Notes under the pieces: generated by a model
Database searches by the model: none
The model's input: only the letters and a program-made list of their open reading frames with translations
What the model was told of the DNA's origin: nothing
Source: Burkholderiales bacterium
GTDB taxonomy: Bacteria > Pseudomonadota > Gammaproteobacteria > Burkholderiales > Burkholderiaceae_C
NCBI GenBank assembly: GCA_016195825.1
Contig: JACPYV010000158.1
Coordinates: forward strand, 1 to 64,000
Direction of reading: 5' to 3'
Length of the DNA stretch: 64,000 nucleotides
Shown: positions 41,835 through 51,185 of the stretch, piece after piece
Position numbering within the stretch: position 1 is the first letter of the stretch
Layout of the letters: every line of letters starts with the position of its first letter
Made by a program: the position numbers and the translations under genes

Positions 41835-42956
41835 ATGAAACCCCTCGACGACCCCCAACACGACCACGAAGCGGGCTCCCGCGACGAAACGCGCGACACC
41901 ACGCGCACCGACGACACCCGCATCGGCGCCGTGCGCGCGCTGATCAGCCCGGCGCTGCTGCTGGAAGAGCTGCCCATCCCCGATGCGACGCTGGAGCTGG
42001 TGGAGCGCGCCCGGCAGGAGATCAGCGCGATCCTGCACGGCCAGGACGACCGGCTGCTGGTCGTCGTGGGCCCCTGCTCCATCCACGACCACGACCAGGC
42101 GATGGACTACGCGCGGCTGCTGAAGACCGCCCGCGAAGAGCTCAGCCGCGACCTGCTGGTGGTCATGCGCGTCTATTTCGAGAAGCCGCGCACGACGGTG
42201 GGTTGGAAGGGCTACATCAACGACCCGCGCCTGGACGGCAGCTTCCACATGAACGAGGGCCTGCGCTTGGCGCGCCAGCTGCTGCTGGACGTCAACGGCC
42301 TGGGCCTGCCGGCCGGCACCGAGTTCCTGGACCTGCTGTCGCCGCAGTACATCTCCGACCTGATCGCTTGGGGCGCCATCGGCGCGCGCACGACCGAGAG
42401 CCAGAGCCACCGCCAACTGGCGTCGGGCCTGAGCTGCCCGGTCGGCTTCAAGAACGGCACGGACGGCGGCATCAAGGTCGCCAGCGACGCCGTGCTGGCC
42501 GCCAGCTCGCCGCATGCCTTCATGGGCATGACCAAGATGGGCACTGCGGCGATCTTCGAGACCCGCGGCAACGCCGACTGCCACGTCATCCTGCGCGGTG
42601 GCAAGGCACCGAACTACGACGCGGCCTCGGTGCAGGCCGCCTGCGAGGCGCTGAAGGCCTCCAAGCTGCGCGAGCAGGTCATGATCGACTTCTCACACGC
42701 CAACTCCAGCAAGAAGTACGAGCGCCAGGTCGACGTGGGCCGTGACGTGGCGGGCCAGATCGCCGGCGGCGATCAGCGCATCACCGGTGTGATGATTGAG
42801 AGCCACCTGCAGCCGGGCCGGCAAGAGCTGGCCGAGGGCCAGACCAAGGCTGACCTCAAGCCCGGCGTGTCCATCACCGACGCCTGTCTGGGCTGGGCGC
42901 AGACCGAGCCGCTGCTGCGCGAGCTGGCGGCGGCTGTCCAACAGCGCCGCAGTTAA
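41835..42956 (+). CDS. 3-deoxy-7-phosphoheptulonate synthase (DAHP synthase, type I)
   Basis: The 373-aa enzyme makes the first committed step of aromatic amino acid synthesis from PEP and erythrose-4-phosphate. The motifs LLVVVGPCSIHDHDQAMDYA, GWKGYINDP and HVILRGGKAPNYD are those of the AroF/G/H group. The N-terminal 30 residues are charged and probably disordered. The feedback type (Phe, Tyr or Trp) cannot be assigned by eye. Confidence 0.95.
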   Translation: MKPLDDPQHDHEAGSRDETRDTTRTDDTRIGAVRALISPALLLEELPIPDATLELVERARQEISAILHGQDDRLLVVVGPCSIHDHDQAMDYARLLKTAREELSRDLLVVMRVYFEKPRTTVGWKGYINDPRLDGSFHMNEGLRLARQLLLDVNGLGLPAGTEFLDLLSPQYISDLIAWGAIGARTTESQSHRQLASGLSCPVGFKNGTDGGIKVASDAVLAASSPHAFMGMTKMGTAAIFETRGNADCHVILRGGKAPNYDAASVQAACEALKASKLREQVMIDFSHANSSKKYERQVDVGRDVAGQIAGGDQRITGVMIESHLQPGRQELAEGQTKADLKPGVSITDACLGWAQTEPLLRELAAAVQQRRS

Positions 42957-43056
42957 ACCGTTCGCGCCCGCAGGCGCCCACCCGTCGCAGCGCGCTCGCG
43001 CCGCGGCGGGGCGGTTTGCAGAATTCAGCCATCCCCACCGCTGAATCCTGGAGACC

Positions 43057-43497
43057 ATGATGAAACAAGCCCTTGCCACCGCCTTGTTCGCCCTGTCCGC
43101 GCTGCTGCCGCTGCGCGGCCACGCGGCCGACGTCACGCTGGAAGTCGAAGGCCTGGACGCCAGCCGGCTGCAGGGCGCCACGCTGATGGTCGCCGTGTTC
43201 ACCGAGCCGGCGAGCTGGCTGCGCCAGCCGCAGGCCGGCCGTCGCTTTTCCCTCGGTGCCGAGGCGTCAGGCGGCAAGGTGACCGTCGTGCTGAAGGACC
43301 TTCCCGACGGCCCGCTGGCTTTCAGCCTGTTCCAGGACGCCAACGCCAACGGCCGGCTGGACATGAACGCCATGGGCCTGCCCACCGAGCCCTACGGCTT
43401 CTCCAACAACGCCGCCGGCAACTTCGGCCCGCCGCAGTTCGAGCAGGCGGTGCTCACGCCCGTGGTCGGCGTGCCCGTCAAGGTCAAGCTGAACTGA
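43057..43497 (+). CDS. DUF2141 exported protein
   Basis: The 146-aa protein has a signal peptide (MMKQALATALFALSALLPLRGHA). The body VTLEVEGLDASRLQGATLMVAVF and the Ca-like loop FQDANANGRLDMNAMGLPTEPYGFSNNA are signatures of DUF2141, an uncharacterised secreted family. It precedes a carotenoid oxygenase by 11 bp, so the two form an operon. Confidence 0.88.
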   Translation: MMKQALATALFALSALLPLRGHAADVTLEVEGLDASRLQGATLMVAVFTEPASWLRQPQAGRRFSLGAEASGGKVTVVLKDLPDGPLAFSLFQDANANGRLDMNAMGLPTEPYGFSNNAAGNFGPPQFEQAVLTPVVGVPVKVKLN

Positions 43498-43508
43498 GGG
43501 AGAGGGCC

Positions 43509-45002
43509 ATGAACCGCATGCTGACCCGCCGTTCCGCCCTCGGCAGCCTGGGCGCCTTGTTCACCAGCGGCTTCAGCCCCGAGCTGCTGGCGCTGGGCCT
43601 GCCGCGCGATGGTTTTGCGGCCGACGCGCCGGAGCTGGCGCCCTTGCTTGGCCTGGACGGCCAGGGGCTAGACGGCGCCGCCGTCATCGAAGGCCGGCTG
43701 CCGGCTGCACTGCGCGGCCGCTACTTCCGCAACGGCCCCGGACTGATGCAGCGCGCCGGCCAGCGCTACCGCCACTGGTTCGACGGCGACGGCCTGGTGC
43801 AGAGCTGGACGCTGCACGACGGCCGCGTCAGCCACAAGGCGCGCTTCGTGCAAACGACCAAGTTCCGCGCCGAGCAGGACGCCGGCCGCTTCCTGCTGCC
43901 CGCCTTCGGCACGGCCATCAAGCCCGAGCGCCCGGTGCGCGGGCCCGACAGCGTCAACGCGGCCAACACCAGCGTGCTGATGCAGGGCGATCACCTCTAT
44001 GCGCTGTGGGAGGGCGGCAGTGCCTACGAGCTGGACCCGGCCACGCTGGCCACGCGCGGCGTCAAGACCTGGTCGCCCGAGCTGCGCGGCATGCCGTTCT
44101 CCGCCCACCCCAAGGTCGAGCCGGATGGCACGGTGTGGAACTTCGGCACCGCCAACGGCCGGCTCGCGGTCTACCAGCTCGACGCCGACGGTAGCGTGCG
44201 CCGCCATGCGCTGTTGGACGTGGGCGCCCCGGCCATGCTGCACGACTTCGCCGTGTCGCAGCACCACCTCGTGTTCCTGCTCGCGCCCATCACGCTGGAC
44301 ATCGCGGCGGTGCGTGCCGGCACGTCCATGCTTGACGCGATGCGCTGGGCCGGCGAGCAGCCCACCCGCGTGCTGGTGGTCGACAAGGCCGACTTCACCC
44401 GGCAGCGCATCTTCGAGATGCCCGCTGCCCACGTCTTCCATTTCGGCAACGCCTGGGACGACGGCCGCCTGCTGCGGTTGGACTATGTGCAGAGCACGCC
44501 GCTGCCCGAGTTCAACGCGGCGGCCCAGCAGATCATGCGCGGCGAGCGCTCCACGCGGGACGTGTCGACGCCGCGTGTGCTGGAGGTCGACCTGCAGACC
44601 GGGGTGCTGCGCGTCGCGTCCCGTGACGAGGCGGTCGAGTTCCCCGTCGTCGACCCGCGTGTCGTCGCGCAGCGGCATCGCTTTGTCTGGTACCCCACGG
44701 CGGTCGACACCGGTGCGCGTTGGGGCTTCAACGGGCTGATGCGGCTGGACATCGACAGTGGTGCGCGGGAGCGCTTCAGCTTCGGCAACGACGTGGTCGT
44801 CGAGGAGCATGTGCTGGTGCCCAGGCCTGGCAGCACCCGCGAAGGCGAGGGCTGGCTGGTCGGCATGGGGTATGACGTCAGGCGCCAGCGCAGCTTCCTC
44901 AGCGTGTTCGACGCCATGCGCCTGGCCGCTGGCCCGCTGGCCCGGGCCTGGCTGCCGTACTGGGTGCCGTACGGCTTTCACGGCCGCTTCTACGCAGCCT
45001 GA
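43509..45002 (+). CDS. Carotenoid oxygenase family protein, exported
   Basis: The 497-aa protein has a twin-arginine-like leader (LTRRSALGSLGALFTSG). The seven-bladed propeller and four iron His are visible: SAHPKVEPDG, MLHDFAVSQHH, HVFHFGNAWDDG and the C-terminal YGFHGRFYAA. The family cleaves carotenoids, apocarotenoids or stilbenes with Fe(II) and O2. The Tat-like leader suggests a folded periplasmic enzyme, unlike most cytoplasmic carotenoid oxygenases. Confidence 0.88.
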   Translation: MNRMLTRRSALGSLGALFTSGFSPELLALGLPRDGFAADAPELAPLLGLDGQGLDGAAVIEGRLPAALRGRYFRNGPGLMQRAGQRYRHWFDGDGLVQSWTLHDGRVSHKARFVQTTKFRAEQDAGRFLLPAFGTAIKPERPVRGPDSVNAANTSVLMQGDHLYALWEGGSAYELDPATLATRGVKTWSPELRGMPFSAHPKVEPDGTVWNFGTANGRLAVYQLDADGSVRRHALLDVGAPAMLHDFAVSQHHLVFLLAPITLDIAAVRAGTSMLDAMRWAGEQPTRVLVVDKADFTRQRIFEMPAAHVFHFGNAWDDGRLLRLDYVQSTPLPEFNAAAQQIMRGERSTRDVSTPRVLEVDLQTGVLRVASRDEAVEFPVVDPRVVAQRHRFVWYPTAVDTGARWGFNGLMRLDIDSGARERFSFGNDVVVEEHVLVPRPGSTREGEGWLVGMGYDVRRQRSFLSVFDAMRLAAGPLARAWLPYWVPYGFHGRFYAA

Positions 45003-45018
45003 GTCGCCTGGGCTGACG

Positions 45019-45047
45019 GTCCCCTGATCCTTGCGGGGACAGGGGAC
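45019..45047 (+). terminator. Possible terminator after the carotenoid oxygenase gene
   Basis: GTCCCCT can pair with AGGGGAC, or alternatively GTCCCC with the nearer GGGGAC. No T-run follows. It lies 17 bp past the stop and just before the glucan-locus promoter. Confidence 0.35.
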
Positions 45048-45053
45048 TCCGCA

Positions 45054-45082
45054 TTGACAGTCTGCTGCAAGGCCCATATGGT
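45054..45082 (+). promoter_or_regulatory. Sigma70 promoter of the glucan locus
   Basis: A perfect -35 TTGACA and a -10 TATGGT are separated by 17 bp. Transcription would start near 45089, immediately before the double palindrome. This is the best promoter in the window. Confidence 0.7.
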
Positions 45083-45092
45083 CGCGCCGTTT

Positions 45093-45121
45093 GTGAAAGC
45101 GCTTTCAGAAAGCGCTTTCAC
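45093..45121. promoter_or_regulatory. 29-bp double palindrome, LacI-family operator type
   Basis: GTGAAAGCGCTTTC-A-GAAAGCGCTTTCAC is a perfect inverted repeat. It consists of two 12-14-bp palindromes with central CG (TGAAAGCGCTTTCA and GAAAGCGCTTTC). Palindromes of this form with a central CpG are typical LacI/CcpA-type operators. It lies about +4 to +33 from the predicted start, where a bound repressor would block transcription. No LacI gene is in the window. Confidence 0.75.
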
Positions 45122-45193
45122 TTTCGGCGATTGACAGCAGTTCGTCGTCGCCTCGTCACGGGATCACCCCGTACCAAAAACCAAGGAGACGAC

Positions 45194-45862
45194 ATGCTGA
45201 ATCTGAAGACCCCTGTGGCCATCGCCACCCTTTTGCTTGCCGGCGCTGCCGGCGCGGCCACGAGCAACGGCATTGCCAATGGCGGGTTTGAGACCGTCAA
45301 CAGCGCCAACCAGCCTGTCGGCTGGGTAGGGGCGGACTCGTCCCCCGCGGTGCTGTCCAACGACGCCCACTCGGGCGCGCATTCCATGCTGCTGAGCGCA
45401 CCCGGCGGCTTCGGCGGTTCCGGGCTGCTGCAGGACTCCGTCGCTCACGGCGGCCTGCCGGCGTTGACGGGGGCCAATGTGGGCGACACGCCGGTACTGA
45501 GCTTCTGGGCCAAGGGCGATGCCAGCACCACCGGCAACGCCAAGTTCGCCCTGAGCTACATGGGTGACGGCGGCGGCGTCCTGTACGACAGCGGCCTGCA
45601 GTTCTTCCAGAACGACATCAACGGCAGCGGCTGGACACGGATCAGCTTCCAGGCTGCCGCCATCCCGGCCGGCACCAAGTCGGTCTACCTGCTGATGAAC
45701 ACAGCCGTCGGGCCGCTGCTGGATGGCCGCGCCAACGCGGTCTACATCGACGACATCCAGCTCACGCTGACCACCGCAGCCGTGCCCGAGCCCGAGAGCT
45801 ATGCGCTGCTGATCGCCGGTCTGGCGCTGGTCGGCGCAGTCGCTCGCCGCCGCCGCGCCTGA
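45194..45862 (+). CDS. PEP-CTERM protein with carbohydrate-binding-like jelly roll
   Basis: The 222-aa protein starts at ATG 45194 (AAGGAG upstream; signal MLNLKTPVAIATLLLAGAAGA). The pattern SNGIANGGFETVNSANQPVGW followed by GAHSMLLSAPG resembles the CBM4/9-like beta-sandwich. The C-terminus VPEPESYALLIAGLALVGAVARRRR is a PEP-CTERM sorting signal. It is first in a three-gene run with a GH16 glucanase, so I infer a surface-anchored glycan-binding protein. Confidence 0.88.
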   Translation: MLNLKTPVAIATLLLAGAAGAATSNGIANGGFETVNSANQPVGWVGADSSPAVLSNDAHSGAHSMLLSAPGGFGGSGLLQDSVAHGGLPALTGANVGDTPVLSFWAKGDASTTGNAKFALSYMGDGGGVLYDSGLQFFQNDINGSGWTRISFQAAAIPAGTKSVYLLMNTAVGPLLDGRANAVYIDDIQLTLTTAAVPEPESYALLIAGLALVGAVARRRRA

Positions 45863-45881
45863 GACCCCAGGAGACAAGCCC

Positions 45882-46523
45882 ATGAACACCCAGATCCACA
45901 CCCTCCCGAAGGTCGCCGCTGCGCTGCTGCTGTGCTGCCTCGCCGTCCACGCCAGCGCGCAGACCGTCGTGCTGGATTCCTATGGCCCTGATATCACCTT
46001 CCTGGACGGCTGGCCCAACCCGCTGACGGCGGGAAACAGCATCGCCGTGCCGTTCCAGATCACCAATGCCACGACAGTCCAATCCATCCTGACCGCCATC
46101 GAGCGCAACCCGGACTGGGCCAGCACGGGCGGTGTCACGCTGGGCATCGCGGCGCGGCAAGGCGCGCTGCCGACCGGCGCGGGTTGGCTCTACAGCACCC
46201 ACCTCAACGACCCGGCCGTCAACACGACGGTGGCGCCCAAGGGCTGGTCGCTGACGGCCGGCAGCTATTGGTTGGTCGCCACGGCCGACGCCGGCTTTGC
46301 CGGGCAGTGGATCAGCGCCACCCAGGACTACACCGGCAACTGGGCCTACACCACGGTGCCGGGTGTCTGGACGCAAGAGAGCTCGACCTTCCTCGGCATG
46401 CCGGGTGCGCGCATCACCGTCACCAGCGCCGTGCCGGAACCGTCTACCTACGGCCTCATGTTCGCCGGCGGCCTGTTGCTCGCCGCCGTCGCCCGCCGCA
46501 AGTCCAACGCCCAACAAGGATGA
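45882..46523 (+). CDS. PEP-CTERM surface protein, second of the glucan locus
   Basis: The 213-aa exported protein begins MNTQIHTLPKVAAALLLCCLAVHASAQ. A beta-rich body (VPFQITNATTVQSILTAIE) ends in VPEPSTYGLMFAGGLLLAAVARRKS. It starts 19 bp after its neighbour with GGAG upstream and its stop overlaps the first possible ATG of the GH16 gene. Function is unknown, but it is probably exposed on the surface. Confidence 0.88.
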   Translation: MNTQIHTLPKVAAALLLCCLAVHASAQTVVLDSYGPDITFLDGWPNPLTAGNSIAVPFQITNATTVQSILTAIERNPDWASTGGVTLGIAARQGALPTGAGWLYSTHLNDPAVNTTVAPKGWSLTAGSYWLVATADAGFAGQWISATQDYTGNWAYTTVPGVWTQESSTFLGMPGARITVTSAVPEPSTYGLMFAGGLLLAAVARRKSNAQQG

Positions 46524-46528
46524 ATGCC

Positions 46529-48304
46529 ATGACCCGTCAACCCATCGTTCGCGCTTTCAGCCGCGTGGTGGCCGGCGCCGCGCTGGTGGCCGTCAGCGCC
46601 GCCGCGTCCGCCAGCGTCACCAGCCCCGTCATCGGCAAGCTGCTCTGGTCCGAGGAGTTCAACGGCGCAAGCCTGGACACCACGCTGTGGACCGCCACCA
46701 CCGGCAACGGCTGCCAGATCGGCCTGTGCGGCTACGGCAACCAGGAGCTGCAGTACTACAGCCCCAACAACCTCAGCATCGCCAACGTGCCCTTCGAGCC
46801 GGGTACGCGCGCGCTGGCCATCACGGCCCGCCGAGAGACCGTCGGCAGCAACCAGTTCACCTCCGGCAAGATTGACACGTCGGGCAAGGTGCAAGTCAAG
46901 TACGGGCTGATCGAGGTCCGCATGGCCACGCCCAAGGTCGGCGTGGGCCTGTGGCCCGCCGCATGGATGCTGGGCACCAGTCCACAGTCCTGGCCGCGCA
47001 AAGGCGAGATCGACATCGTGGAGCAGGGCGGCCGGCAACCGGCCGGGCTGCCGGCGATCTCGCCGGACCAGTTCGTCGGGTCCAACGTCATCACCTTCGC
47101 GGACGCCGCCTGCGTGCCCGGCAACGAAAGCTGCGCCGCCTCCACCGCCTGGCAGACCAAGAACTGGTACACGCCGTCGCGCTCGCTGGCCAACCGCTTC
47201 GTCACCTACCGCCTCTATTGGACCGACACGCAGATCCGCTTCAGCGTGCTGGACAACGGCCGCGAGTACGACATGTACAAGGCGCCCATCTCCACGGTCA
47301 ATTCGCCCGCGCTGCAGGCGCCGTTCTACCTGTTGCTGAACATGGCGGTTGGCGGCAACTTCACGCCCGCCGCCACGCCGGAGCAGATCACCGCGCCGCT
47401 ACCGGGCACTACTTACGTGGACTACGTGCGCGTCTACGAACTGGATGGCAAGGGCGAGGTCAAGCTGGGGCTGGGCATCACGCCGGAGGTCGGCAAGTTC
47501 GGGGTCTTCACCGACAACACGCTGGTCGACAACAAGCAGGTGCCCGGCGTCTCGTCCGACATCTACATCTGGAACCAGGGCTCCATGACCTCTGGCGACA
47601 CGCCGCCCTACGAAGGGTCGGGCGTGCTGGCCTTCAAGTACTTCGCGCCGGGGCAGTGGTTCGGCGGCAGCATCCAGTCGCGCCAGGTGCACGACATGAG
47701 CGGTTTCCGGGGCGGCAACATCAAGCTCAAGATCAAGGCACCTGCCAACGTGGCCTTCCGCATAGGCATCTACGACACCTACACCAACCAGAGCGCGGTG
47801 ACCTTCCCAGCCAACACCACCGCCTACGGCCTGGTGCGCAACGGCGAATGGGGCACGGCCACCATCCCGGTGGCCGAGATTGCCGGGCCGAAGATCGCGC
47901 TGCAGTCCATGCTGGACCTGTTCCAGTTCTTCAGCGTGGACGGGGCGCTGCCGGGCGCGCAGTTCCAGATCGCCTTCGACGACATCGTCTGGGATTCGGG
48001 CGTCGCGAGCACGCCCCAGGTGACCGTCGCCAAGGCCGCCGCGCCGGCTCCCGCCGTGGTGACCGACGCTGCGCAGTCCGGTGCCAGCACGCTCGACTTC
48101 GCCGTGGCCGCCACCGGCTGGGCCGACGTGCACTACTCGGTCAATGGCGGCAGCGCCCAGACCGTGCGCCTGCGCCTGGATGGCAAGAGCAGCCGCTACA
48201 CCGCGGGTGGCTTGAAGAAGGGCGACGTGGTCGAGTACCGCTTCACCTACTGGAATGGCCAGGTGGCCGTCGACACCGCCGCCAAGACGGTGGTGCTGAA
48301 GTAA
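46529..48304 (+). CDS. GH16 endo-beta-1,3-glucanase with C-terminal CBM56
   Basis: The product is about 591 aa. I prefer ATG 46529 because AAGGA lies 8 nt upstream; ATG 46520 overlaps the previous stop and is too close to it. Domains: signal peptide; GH16 catalytic domain about residues 35-310 with the active-site motif [10 protein letters not shown] (ExDxxE) and [14 protein letters not shown]; a beta-sandwich about 315-490 ([13 protein letters not shown] ... FDDIVWDSG); and a CBM56-like module ([29 protein letters not shown]) that binds beta-1,3-glucan. The enzyme is secreted and probably degrades laminarin or curdlan. There is no PEP-CTERM tail. Confidence 0.92.
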
Positions 48305-48323
48305 GGCAAGCCCGAGAGAAAAC

Positions 48324-48345
48324 GGGGTGGACGCGCGTCCACCCC
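48324..48345. terminator. 22-bp perfect palindrome after the glucanase gene
   Basis: GGGGTGGACGC/GCGTCCACCCC is a perfect dyad without loop, 20 bp past the GH16 stop. On the minus strand it is followed by TTTTC, on the plus strand by GCGCAT. It probably separates the glucan locus from rpiA. Confidence 0.5.
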
Positions 48346-48351
48346 GCGCAT

Positions 48352-48366
48352 CCGCGAAAATCGCGG
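48352..48366 (+). other. Hairpin abutting the rpiA start codon
   Basis: CCGCGA-AAA-TCGCGG ends two bases before the rpiA ATG. No Shine-Dalgarno is visible, so this stem may limit or control translation initiation. Confidence 0.35.
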
Positions 48367-48368
48367 TC

Positions 48369-49028
48369 ATGAACCAAGACCAGCTCAAACAACTCGTCGG
48401 CCGCGCCGCGCTCAACCACGTCACGCCCGGCCAGATCGTCGGCGTGGGCACCGGCTCCACGGTGGACTGCTTCATCGATGCGCTGGCCACCAGCGGCATC
48501 GCCGTCGCGGGCGCCGTGTCCAGCTCGGAGCGTTCCACGCAGCGGCTGCTCAAGCACGGCATCAAGGTGCTGGACGCCGCCGAGGTCACCGGTCTCACCG
48601 TCTACATCGACGGCGCCGACGAAATCGATGGCAACGGATTCATGATCAAGGGCGGCGGTGCCGCGCTGACGCGCGAGAAGATCGTCGCCGACCTGGCCGA
48701 GCGCTTCGTCTGCATCGCCGACGAATCCAAGCTCGTGCAGACCCTCGGCCGCTTCCCGTTGCCGGTGGAAATCATCCCCATGGCCGCGGCGCAGCTGACG
48801 CGCCGCTTCGCCAAGCTGGGCGGCGTTGCCAGGCTGCGCGCCGGCGTCGTCACCGACAACGGCGGCCACATCCTCGACGTGACGGGCCTGTCCATCACCG
48901 ACCCGCTGGCCTTCGAGACCGAGGTCAATCAGTGGCCCGGCGTCGTCACGGTCGGCGTGTTTGCGCGGCACAAGGCGCAGGTCTGCCTGCTGGGTGGTGC
49001 GGACGGCGTGAAGACGCTGACCTTCTGA
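48369..49028 (+). CDS. rpiA: Ribose-5-phosphate isomerase A
   Basis: The 219-aa enzyme interconverts ribose-5-phosphate and ribulose-5-phosphate. [16 protein letters not shown] binds phosphate, [29 protein letters not shown] carries the catalytic Asp/Lys/Glu residues, and the end [20 protein letters not shown] is standard. The start at 48369 is the normal family N-terminus. Confidence 0.96.
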
Positions 49029-49039
49029 GCCGCGACCGC

Positions 49040-49621
49040 ATGCCCCGTGAGCCGCTGGGCTTCGACGCGGCGTCCCACGAGCGCCACCACTGGTGGCGCA
49101 GCCTGCTGTTCCGTTTGGTGCTGTGCGTCGGCGTGAGCGGCTTGCTCGGGTGGCTTGGCGGCTGGGTGGGTGTGCTGCCTAGCCTCATGCTGTGGGCGCG
49201 CGCCTTTGCCGCCGACCTGGTGGCCCTGGGCGAAACGGGCTGGCGGGGCCTGCGCCACCTGGCCTTCAAGCCGGTGCAGGGGCGCTTCTACCAGTTCAAG
49301 GGCCACCGCATCCGCGTCGTCGACGACGAGGTTGACGCGCAGCGCTGGCTCGCGCTGGCCGACCTCGCCACGGCGCTCGATGCGCCCATGCCCGCTGCCG
49401 TCTTCAGGCGGCGCCAGCCGCAGTCGCTGCGCGAGCTGCCCGACGGCGTCTACCTGCTCGACGAGGCCGCGCTGGCTTGGCTGCGTGCGCAGCGCAGCGA
49501 CCGCGCCGGCCGCCTGGCGCTGTGGGTAGAGCGCGAGGTCTGGTACCCAGCGCGTGGCCGCAAGGCCGGCTACACGCAAAAAGGGGTGTCCGGCACCCGG
49601 CCGGACACCCCTGTCGACTGA
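49040..49621 (+). CDS. Uncharacterised 193-aa membrane-anchored protein
   Basis: It starts at ATG 49040 (MPREPLGFDAASHERHHWW), 11 bp after rpiA. Hydrophobic segments near residues 20-40 and 40-60 anchor it, followed by a soluble alpha/beta region (YQFKGHRIRVVDDEVDAQRW). No family was recognised. Its last codons are made of the terminator of the convergent M4 protease gene, so the C-terminal PDTPVD may be under RNA-structure rather than protein constraint. Confidence 0.7.
   Translation: MPREPLGFDAASHERHHWWRSLLFRLVLCVGVSGLLGWLGGWVGVLPSLMLWARAFAADLVALGETGWRGLRHLAFKPVQGRFYQFKGHRIRVVDDEVDAQRWLALADLATALDAPMPAAVFRRRQPQSLRELPDGVYLLDEAALAWLRAQRSDRAGRLALWVEREVWYPARGRKAGYTQKGVSGTRPDTPVD
49578..49612 (-). 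terminator. Terminator of the M4 protease gene, inside a coding sequence
   Basis: AGGGGTGTCCGG and CCGGACACCCCT form a 12-bp stem. Read on the minus strand, TTTTT follows, so it terminates the M4 protease mRNA. It lies within the last codons of the convergent plus-strand gene. Confidence 0.85.
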
Positions 49622-49631
49622 ACTGCAGGGC

Positions 49632-51185
49632 TCAGTTGCGGCCGACCGCGCTCCAGGCGGCGGCCACCTGGGCCGAGTAGTCGGCCCCCAGGGTGCCGAC
49701 CAGCTCGGCAGCGGCGGCAATGGTCGCAGCGCGGGCGCCCGCGTAGTTGGTGCTGGACGTCATCTTCGTCGTCAGGGCCCGGTACCAGATCTTGGCGGCG
49801 GCGTTGCGGCCGATGCCCGTCAGCGTGCCCGTGCCGGTGGCGACGCGGGTGTTGCCGCTCACGCAGGTCGGGCTCTTGCCGTAGCTGCTGTTGGTGCCTT
49901 CGGCGAGCAGGAAGAAGAAGTGGTTGGCCACGCCCGAGCTGTAGTGCACGTCCAGGCTGCCGACGCCGGAGTACCAGCAGTCCGCTGAGCCACCGTCGGA
50001 GCTGGGCTTGACCATGCTGCGCAGCGAGCCGCCACCGACCATGATCTTCTCGCCGATCAGGTAGTCGCCCGGGTCGTTGGCATTGGCCGCGTAGAACTCG
50101 ACCATGGAGCCGAAGATGTCCGACGTGGCCTCGTTCAGGCCGCCGGACTCGCCCGAGTAGGTCAGGTTGGCCGTACGGCTGGTGACGCCGTGGGTCATCT
50201 CGTGGCCGGCCACGTCCAGAGACACCAGCGCCTTCAGGCTGGTGCCGTCACCGTCGCCGTAGGTCATGCAGAAGCACGAGTCCGACCAGTAGGCGTTGGC
50301 GTAGTTGCGGCTGTAGTGCACGCGGTTGTAGGCGCCCTTGCCGTCGTTGGCGATGCCGGTGCGGCCATGCACGTTCTTGTAGTAGTCCCAGGTCACGGCG
50401 GTGCCGTACTGCGCATCGGCGCCGGCGCTGGCCGTGTCGCTGGTGCTGTTGTTGCCCCAGGTGTTGTCGGCGTCCGTGAAGATGGTGCCACCGCTGGTGC
50501 GGTTCTTCAGGTTGATGGTGTAGGTGTTGCCGCGGCTCGGGTCGCGCAGCTCGTAGCCGCCGCTGACGCTGTTGGTCGTCAGCGTGACGTTGCCGCTGTA
50601 GATCGTCTTGCCAGTGCCCGTGGCGGCGGCCGTGTGGATGTCGTCCCACAGGTCGAGCTGGCTGCCGGTGGCGGCGTCGACGATGACATGCTTCTCGAAC
50701 GGCGTGCCGTCGGCGCTCTCGCCGGACACCGGCACGTCCCAGGCCAGCGCGGGCACCTGGTCGCGGGCGTAGAGCACCAGCTCTGGCTTGCCGACGGTGC
50801 CGTCCTGGGTACGGGTCACCACCATCGCGGCGCGCTGTGCGTTCAGCGTGGGCTTGCCGGTGGCGCCGGCCTGCCAGCGCATGGTGTGGTGCATCGCACG
50901 CAGGTTGCCCATGCGGTCGGTCTGCACGACCAGGTCGCCGCCGATGACGCGCAGGCCGCCGATGCTGCGGTCCATACGCACGTGCTGGCCGCCATCGGCG
51001 TCGACGACGATGTCGCGCACGTGGTAGCGGTGGTCGGCGCCGTGCATGCTGAGGCCGGGGAACTGGCGCACATGGCCTTCCGCGCGGCTCTGGACCTGGG
51101 CGAAGTCGGGGCGTTGGGTCTGGGCCTGGGCCATGGCGGCCGAAAGCGCCACGCTCAGCAGCGTGAGGCGAAAGATGGAATGCAT
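49632..51185 (-). CDS. M4-family secreted metalloprotease (thermolysin/vibriolysin type)
   Basis: The 517-aa preproprotein starts at 51185 with CAGGAG upstream (MHSIFRLTLLSVALSAAMAQA). The FTP/PepSY propeptide covers about residues 25-190 (LNAQRAAMVV). The catalytic domain has AGHEMTHGVTSRTANLTYSG (HExxH), then GGLNEATSDIFG with the third zinc ligand Glu, and DVHYSSGVANHFFFLLAEG near the active-site His. It degrades extracellular protein. Its terminator overlaps the neighbouring gene. The 269-bp upstream gap holds a CCCCGGC/GCCGGGG hairpin (51266-51282) but no clear promoter. Confidence 0.92.
   Translation of the reverse strand: MHSIFRLTLLSVALSAAMAQAQTQRPDFAQVQSRAEGHVRQFPGLSMHGADHRYHVRDIVVDADGGQHVRMDRSIGGLRVIGGDLVVQTDRMGNLRAMHHTMRWQAGATGKPTLNAQRAAMVVTRTQDGTVGKPELVLYARDQVPALAWDVPVSGESADGTPFEKHVIVDAATGSQLDLWDDIHTAAATGTGKTIYSGNVTLTTNSVSGGYELRDPSRGNTYTINLKNRTSGGTIFTDADNTWGNNSTSDTASAGADAQYGTAVTWDYYKNVHGRTGIANDGKGAYNRVHYSRNYANAYWSDSCFCMTYGDGDGTSLKALVSLDVAGHEMTHGVTSRTANLTYSGESGGLNEATSDIFGSMVEFYAANANDPGDYLIGEKIMVGGGSLRSMVKPSSDGGSADCWYSGVGSLDVHYSSGVANHFFFLLAEGTNSSYGKSPTCVSGNTRVATGTGTLTGIGRNAAAKIWYRALTTKMTSSTNYAGARAATIAAAAELVGTLGADYSAQVAAAWSAVGRN

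Follow-up and report, generated by a model that had tools for sequence, protein, structure and literature searches.

How is an operon controlled whose promoter runs directly into two overlapping palindromes, and which protein would read them? In the window, by which we mean the whole stretch of 64,000 nucleotides analysed here, a -35 box TTGACA (45054..45059, + strand) is followed after 17 bp by a -10 box TATGGT (45077..45082, + strand) and then by a 29-bp perfect inverted repeat (45093..45121, strandless), which we predict to be a tandem operator. The initial annotation had described this very arrangement, TTGACA-N17-TATGGT followed by a perfect repeat harbouring two palindromes, and its description holds at 45054-45082 and 45093-45121. 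The repeat reads GTGAAAGCGCTTTC-A-GAAAGCGCTTTCAC and contains the 12-mer palindrome GAAAGCGCTTTC twice, both times exactly and with 13 bp from centre to centre: putative operator copy 1 (45095..45106, strandless) lies within the 14-mer TGAAAGCGCTTTCA, and putative copy 2, likewise strandless, occupies 45108..45119. TGAAAGCGCTTTCA is an even palindrome with a central CG, the form by which LacI-family operators are recognised (PMC4052901). Since the -10 position predicts a transcription start at about 45089-45091, the operator would span about +3 to +31.

How much of this might arise by chance? Tandem copies of a palindrome automatically form an inverted repeat, so the 29-bp repeat carries no weight beyond that of the copies themselves. 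Taken by itself, the promoter match is weak evidence as well, because a search of 42000-50000 on both strands found one such site where 0.5 are expected in shuffles; judged by its sequence, the match appears modestly above chance unless conservation is counted. When the window was scanned for the 12-mer with up to two mismatches, the two exact copies were the sole matches, and this mismatch-tolerant count is at chance level; significance therefore rests on exact copies genome-wide. A second TTGACA at 45131, considered as a promoter, was rejected for want of a -10 partner and of conservation.

The operon and its conservation

The genes downstream are tightly packed. An SD-like AAGGAGA (45183-45189, + strand) precedes the first of them (45194..45862, + strand), encoding PEP-CTERM protein 1 (222 aa; Pfam PEP-CTERM, 31.5 bits). 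After a 19-nt gap follows the gene for PEP-CTERM protein 2 (45882..46523, + strand; 213 aa; 25.7 bits), which overlaps by 7 nt with the gene for a 595-aa GH16 glucanase carrying a C-terminal CBM56 (46517..48304, + strand; Pfam GH16 and CBM_56). The initial annotation had named two PEP-CTERM proteins and a GH16 glucanase; Pfam agrees and adds the CBM56. Between the GH16 gene and rpiA, which lies 3' of it, stands a GC-rich stem-loop (48322..48347, strandless) with a terminator-like call on the - strand; this is the likely operon boundary and may also act as a terminator on the + strand.

Because the genome encodes two exosortase (EpsH) genes, PEP-CTERM sorting is available in the host. Structure models of PEP-CTERM proteins 1 and 2 are weak (mean pLDDT 54 and 70, respectively). 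Weak fold matches of the low-confidence model of protein 1 (45194-45862) include CBM4/CBM16/CBM22 jelly rolls, which we regard as a lead only, and this protein is possibly an exported glucan-binding protein. Fold matches of the protein 2 model were uninformative.

The GH16-CBM56 gene is present in 10 of the 20 genomes of the genus, with orthologues in the 9 other genomes being 78-86% identical. The complete PEP-CTERM/PEP-CTERM/GH16 operon occurs in 12 genomes, namely all 10 of the genus and one each of two further genera (G224 and G298), and orthologues of both PEP-CTERM proteins are found in 12/12 of these operons. TTGACA and the 17-bp spacing between the -35 and -10 boxes are kept throughout; the -10 box reads TATGGT in 8 of the 12 and TAAGGT, TAACGT, TATTGT or TAGCCT in the rest. 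Across all 12 orthologues and the three genera they represent, both palindromes are retained, with an invariant 13-bp step and a start 9-13 bp past the -10 box. Mean pairwise identity amounts to 97% for copy 1 and 95% for copy 2, as compared to 41% for the N17 spacer and 34% for the downstream flank. Half of the orthologues (6/12) have a single substitution that affects just one of the copies and invariably falls on a symmetric outer base of the central GCGC. Genus g128 has the GH16-CBM56 gene without PEP-CTERM genes and with a single site only, so control of the enzyme in itself does not require a doubled site.

A β-1,3-glucan site set across the genome

Where else does the palindrome occur? 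The initial annotation had proposed a genome-wide search for further sites and for a LacI-family gene near glucan genes, and both turned up. Exact copies of GAAAGCGCTTTC number 8 in the 6.0-Mb genome, where about 0.3 are expected (0.28-0.37 with Markov models of first and second order); for its 25-bp double, the expectation is about 1e-8 copies. Two of the eight lie in the window, four on contig C76, one at a GH64-CBM56 gene and one at a thioredoxin-like/MFS gene pair. On C76, one site abuts the ABC sugar-binding protein gene at the head of an ABC-GH1-GH16 gene run, another stands ahead of a GH16-CBM6 gene, and two precede a TonB-dependent receptor gene, which adjoins the LacI-family gene P0001. 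The GH64-CBM56 β-1,3-glucanase gene is preceded by its exact site together with a 1-mismatch site 44 bp off. Glucan-enzyme targets of the set are hence GH16-CBM56, GH16-CBM6, GH64-CBM56 and GH1, and we take GH64, CBM56 and GH16 of this type to point to β-1,3-glucan as substrate. The remaining exact site, upstream of the thioredoxin-like gene and then the MFS gene, has no obvious glucan link and counts against the explanation that we favour below.

A LacI-family protein as probable regulator

Which protein would bind these sites? The genome contains 11 LacI-type HTH genes, 0/11 of them on the window's contig, in agreement with the earlier view that no LacI gene is nearby and that the regulator is encoded elsewhere. 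Our candidate, P0001, is a LacI-family protein with LacI HTH and sugar-binding domains. It is encoded off the window's contig (G000:C76:18287-19342) in the β-1,3-glucan cluster with the four exact sites, amid GH16, GH1, ABC transporter, GH16-CBM6 and TonB receptor genes. That the genome has 10 LacI-type HTH genes besides P0001 is a point against a reading specific to this protein.

In a sample of 301 genomes from the taxonomic family, P0001 orthologues were called at a threshold of E<=1e-110. None of the 46 genomes with an orthologue lacks an exact site; they average 3.6, and 42 of them have two or more, as opposed to a mean of 0.29 in the 255 genomes without an orthologue, 197 of which have none. 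Because the genomes are related, the p-value of this contrast is not a true probability; the effect size is large. Even in distant genera, with orthologue identity of about 60-70%, sites still lie beside the P0001 orthologue and beside ABC, GH1 and TonB-receptor genes. From these sequence comparisons, P0001 is a well-supported candidate for the regulator of the window's operon.

The solved DNA-binding domain closest to P0001 is that of CcpA. The cre consensus is TGWNANCGNTNWCA, in which N falls on the substituted operator positions, the outer bases of the central GCGC. The optimum CcpA site is TGAAAGCGCTTTCA (PMC5483248), and the window site is identical to this cre optimum. P0001 was also considered as a CcpA itself and rejected, scoring 189.9 bits against an NCBIfam cut-off (TIGR01481) of 442.35.

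Proposed mechanism

How might the operon be switched on and off? In our judgement it is very probable that P0001 represses the operon at its start site via the tandem operator and that a β-1,3-glucan breakdown product releases P0001, thereby inducing the glucanase genes together. The reading given in the initial annotation, in which a LacI-family repressor would act on this promoter, is thus well supported. P0001 would bind the two overlapping TGAAAGCGCTTTCA-type palindromes and block RNA polymerase at TTGACA-N17-TATGGT, leaving the PEP-CTERM/PEP-CTERM/GH16-CBM56 operon, with its secreted β-1,3-glucanase, silent. A repressor sitting at about +3 to +31 blocks initiation, in the manner of LacI at O1. 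Candidate inducers are a laminari-oligosaccharide, a beta-glucoside or glucose, probably imported by the TonB receptor and the ABC transporter that the C76 cluster itself encodes, and release of P0001 would lead to joint induction of all glucanase genes. Most likely, the gain from doubling would be that rebinding or double occupancy keeps more repressor at the start site. We infer P0001 binding, repression, the inducer and double occupancy, with the CcpA-like DNA-binding domain, the cre-like site and the substitutions at cre N positions as grounds for repression by P0001 and for release by a glucan product or glucose.

The analogy behind such a release is GlyR3 of the celC-glyR3-licA system in Clostridium thermocellum, a LacI-family repressor that was shown experimentally to be released by laminaribiose (PMC5483248). 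Compared by description, not by regulator sequence, the GlyR3 and P0001 systems share a LacI-family protein, glucanase gene targets and a CcpA-like palindrome; the GlyR3 system differs in its Firmicute host, its single site TGAACGCGCGTACA and the absence of PEP-CTERM genes. CcpA/cre has the same site optimum and the closest solved DNA-binding domain, but P0001 falls below the NCBIfam cut-off and most of its sites stay close to glucan genes. BglR1-3 and GluR of Caulobacterales are also predicted LacI-TFs of Proteobacteria acting on beta-glucoside and glucose genes (PMC4052901); they differ from P0001 in lineage, and the likeness is one of description, not of motif or orthology. A P0001-type regulator with a β-1,3-glucanase/PEP-CTERM target found no match in the searched text of PMC4052901. 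LacI-family carbohydrate regulons and the 13-bp double operator are thus known types, and what appears to be new, and is well supported at the sequence level, is this β-1,3-glucan/PEP-CTERM instance with a named candidate regulator. The outcome is a multi-contig β-1,3-glucan regulon with a probable regulator in Roseateles/Pelomonas, and a tie between PEP-CTERM proteins of unknown function and glucan degradation.

Distribution and occupancy of the 13-bp double site

Intersite distances of LacI-family regulators peak at 13, 22 and 32 bp (Ravcheev et al. 2014, PMC4052901), and overlapping 13-bp pairs stand ahead of 110 operons, including E. coli gntKU, with dimers at this spacing judged hard to reconcile with structures (PMC4052901). 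Having been described there, the double-site layout is known but structurally unexplained. The window pair belongs to this class of 13-bp overlapping LacI-TF double operators, its spacing being conserved in 12/12 orthologues. As for GntR at gntKU and the other 13-bp pairs (PMC4052901), two palindromes about 13 bp apart share one promoter region and are conserved in orthologues; what sets the present pair apart is its fixed position right behind the -10 box in all 12. No match came from a literature search on LacI operators in tandem or overlapping arrangement, or on Roseateles and laminarin. The locus offers a clean conserved example of the 13-bp overlapping LacI-family operator, whose natural relatives include single-site and variant-copy forms.

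In the window's own family, exact pairs are spaced by 13, 24 or 26 bp only, and occur in 5 of the 301 genomes. When 84,980 species, each represented by one genome, were scanned for the exact double, 17 loci emerged: five orthologous ones of Roseateles type, several in Actinobacteria, one in Lachnoclostridium, and two on Chloroflexota contigs, where a LacI gene lies downstream. The 16 loci with enough flank have a TTGAC -35-like box 29-48 bp from the tandem on either strand, a recurrence to be read as a pattern and not as a statistic because the lineages are few and partly homologous.

Some of these loci deserve separate mention. At L047:5973-6010, from an Actinomycetes MAG, a third palindrome of GAAAGCGC type follows the same 13-bp step downstream of a TTGAC box, the array being laid out as GAAAGCGCATTC-A-GAAAGCGCTTTC-T-GAAAGCGCTTTC. 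Two record names look wrong: L041 is titled Methylotenera and has a Roseateles-type locus, and L046 is titled Rhodococcus rhodnii and closely resembles the Kibdelosporangium/Actinosynnema loci.

How would P0001 occupy two such copies? The confidences that we attach to the alternatives from here on are not exclusive of one another, and the first is a variant of the mechanism proposed above: P0001 may bind as one dimer at a time, at either palindrome, with the second copy serving as a spare or rebinding site. We regard this as a serious contender, falling just short of an even chance. Two dimers spaced by 13 bp are difficult to square with structures (PMC4052901), and half of the orthologues have one substituted copy, both of which would fit a single dimer; against this, 12 orthologues from 3 genera have kept the two copies at precisely 13 bp, the substituted copies differ solely at the least specific position, and L047 has its triple array at 13 bp.

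More tentatively, tandem palindromes at 13 bp right after the -10 box might form a distinct, repeatedly evolved operator class. At least two dimers would then be bound together, rotated about 85-90 degrees round the helix and with overlapping DNA contacts, a mode unseen in LacI-family structures, to give tight start-site repression. Such a class would predict what is seen in Roseateles, Actinobacteria and Chloroflexota, where this layout follows a TTGAC-type -35 box, as well as the L047 triple array.

Alternative regulators and modes of action

Could P0001 merely share its motif with the actual regulator, the palindromes being bound by another LacI-family protein or by a CcpA-like global catabolite regulator responding to glucose status? 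The match of TGAAAGCGCTTTCA to the optimum CcpA cre (PMC5483248) speaks for it, as do the similar recognition helices of several proteins among the 11 LacI-type HTH genes. We nevertheless consider it improbable, given that the sites cluster near P0001 and its orthologues in many genera, that site number tracks P0001 presence over the 301 genomes, that P0001 lies far below the NCBIfam ccpA cut-off (189.9 vs 442 bits), and that the targets are mostly glucan genes rather than a global set.

Somewhat less probable again is that P0001 acts on some of these promoters as an activator or in a dual role. LacI-family activators exist, as is general knowledge, and site pairs 44 bp (GH64) and roughly 160-215 bp (TonB receptor) apart at promoters would accommodate such a role; an operator 9-13 bp past the -10 box in 12/12 orthologues, however, is in a repressing position.

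That the inverted repeat acts as RNA, through a 5' hairpin affecting mRNA stability, attenuation or translation, is very improbable: the leader does fold into a hairpin with a 13-bp stem (z = -3.9 vs shuffles), but such folding is expected of any tandem palindrome, the one-sided substitutions in six orthologues are uncompensated, where an RNA stem calls for compensatory changes, promoters elsewhere in the regulon carry single palindromes, and no T-run follows the stem.

Further features of the regulon promoters

Several details of the site set bear mention beside the proposed repression by P0001. In some species, the β-1,3-glucan cluster includes two chitinase-like GH18 genes with CBM5/12 (L024:5878-9288, C76 cluster); as found in the C76 cluster, these genes suggest the cell wall of fungi as a possible natural substrate. 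GH64-CBM56 promoters (L025:7781-7836; orthologues L129, L131, L133, L134, L135 and L137) keep their site pair 43-44 bp apart, one copy being exact and the other bearing the same substitution throughout (GAAACCGCTTTC). At TonB-receptor promoters (L024:14503-14725; L111-L119), sites are retained about 160-215 bp apart, and in several species the proximal site is preceded, at a distance of 26 bp (2 x 13), by a degenerate copy; this spacing and the degenerate copy suggest looping or phased binding.

Ahead of the ABC sugar-binding protein gene (L024:5554-5571 and orthologues), the site ends about 5-6 bp before the ATG and therefore leaves no space for a normal Shine-Dalgarno sequence; the transcript may be leaderless. 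Finally, the thioredoxin-like gene (L026:7972-8535; L130, L136, L138) has a conserved exact site right after a TTGACA promoter-like sequence and would be an unexpected member of the regulon, with the MFS gene behind it in the genome of the window.
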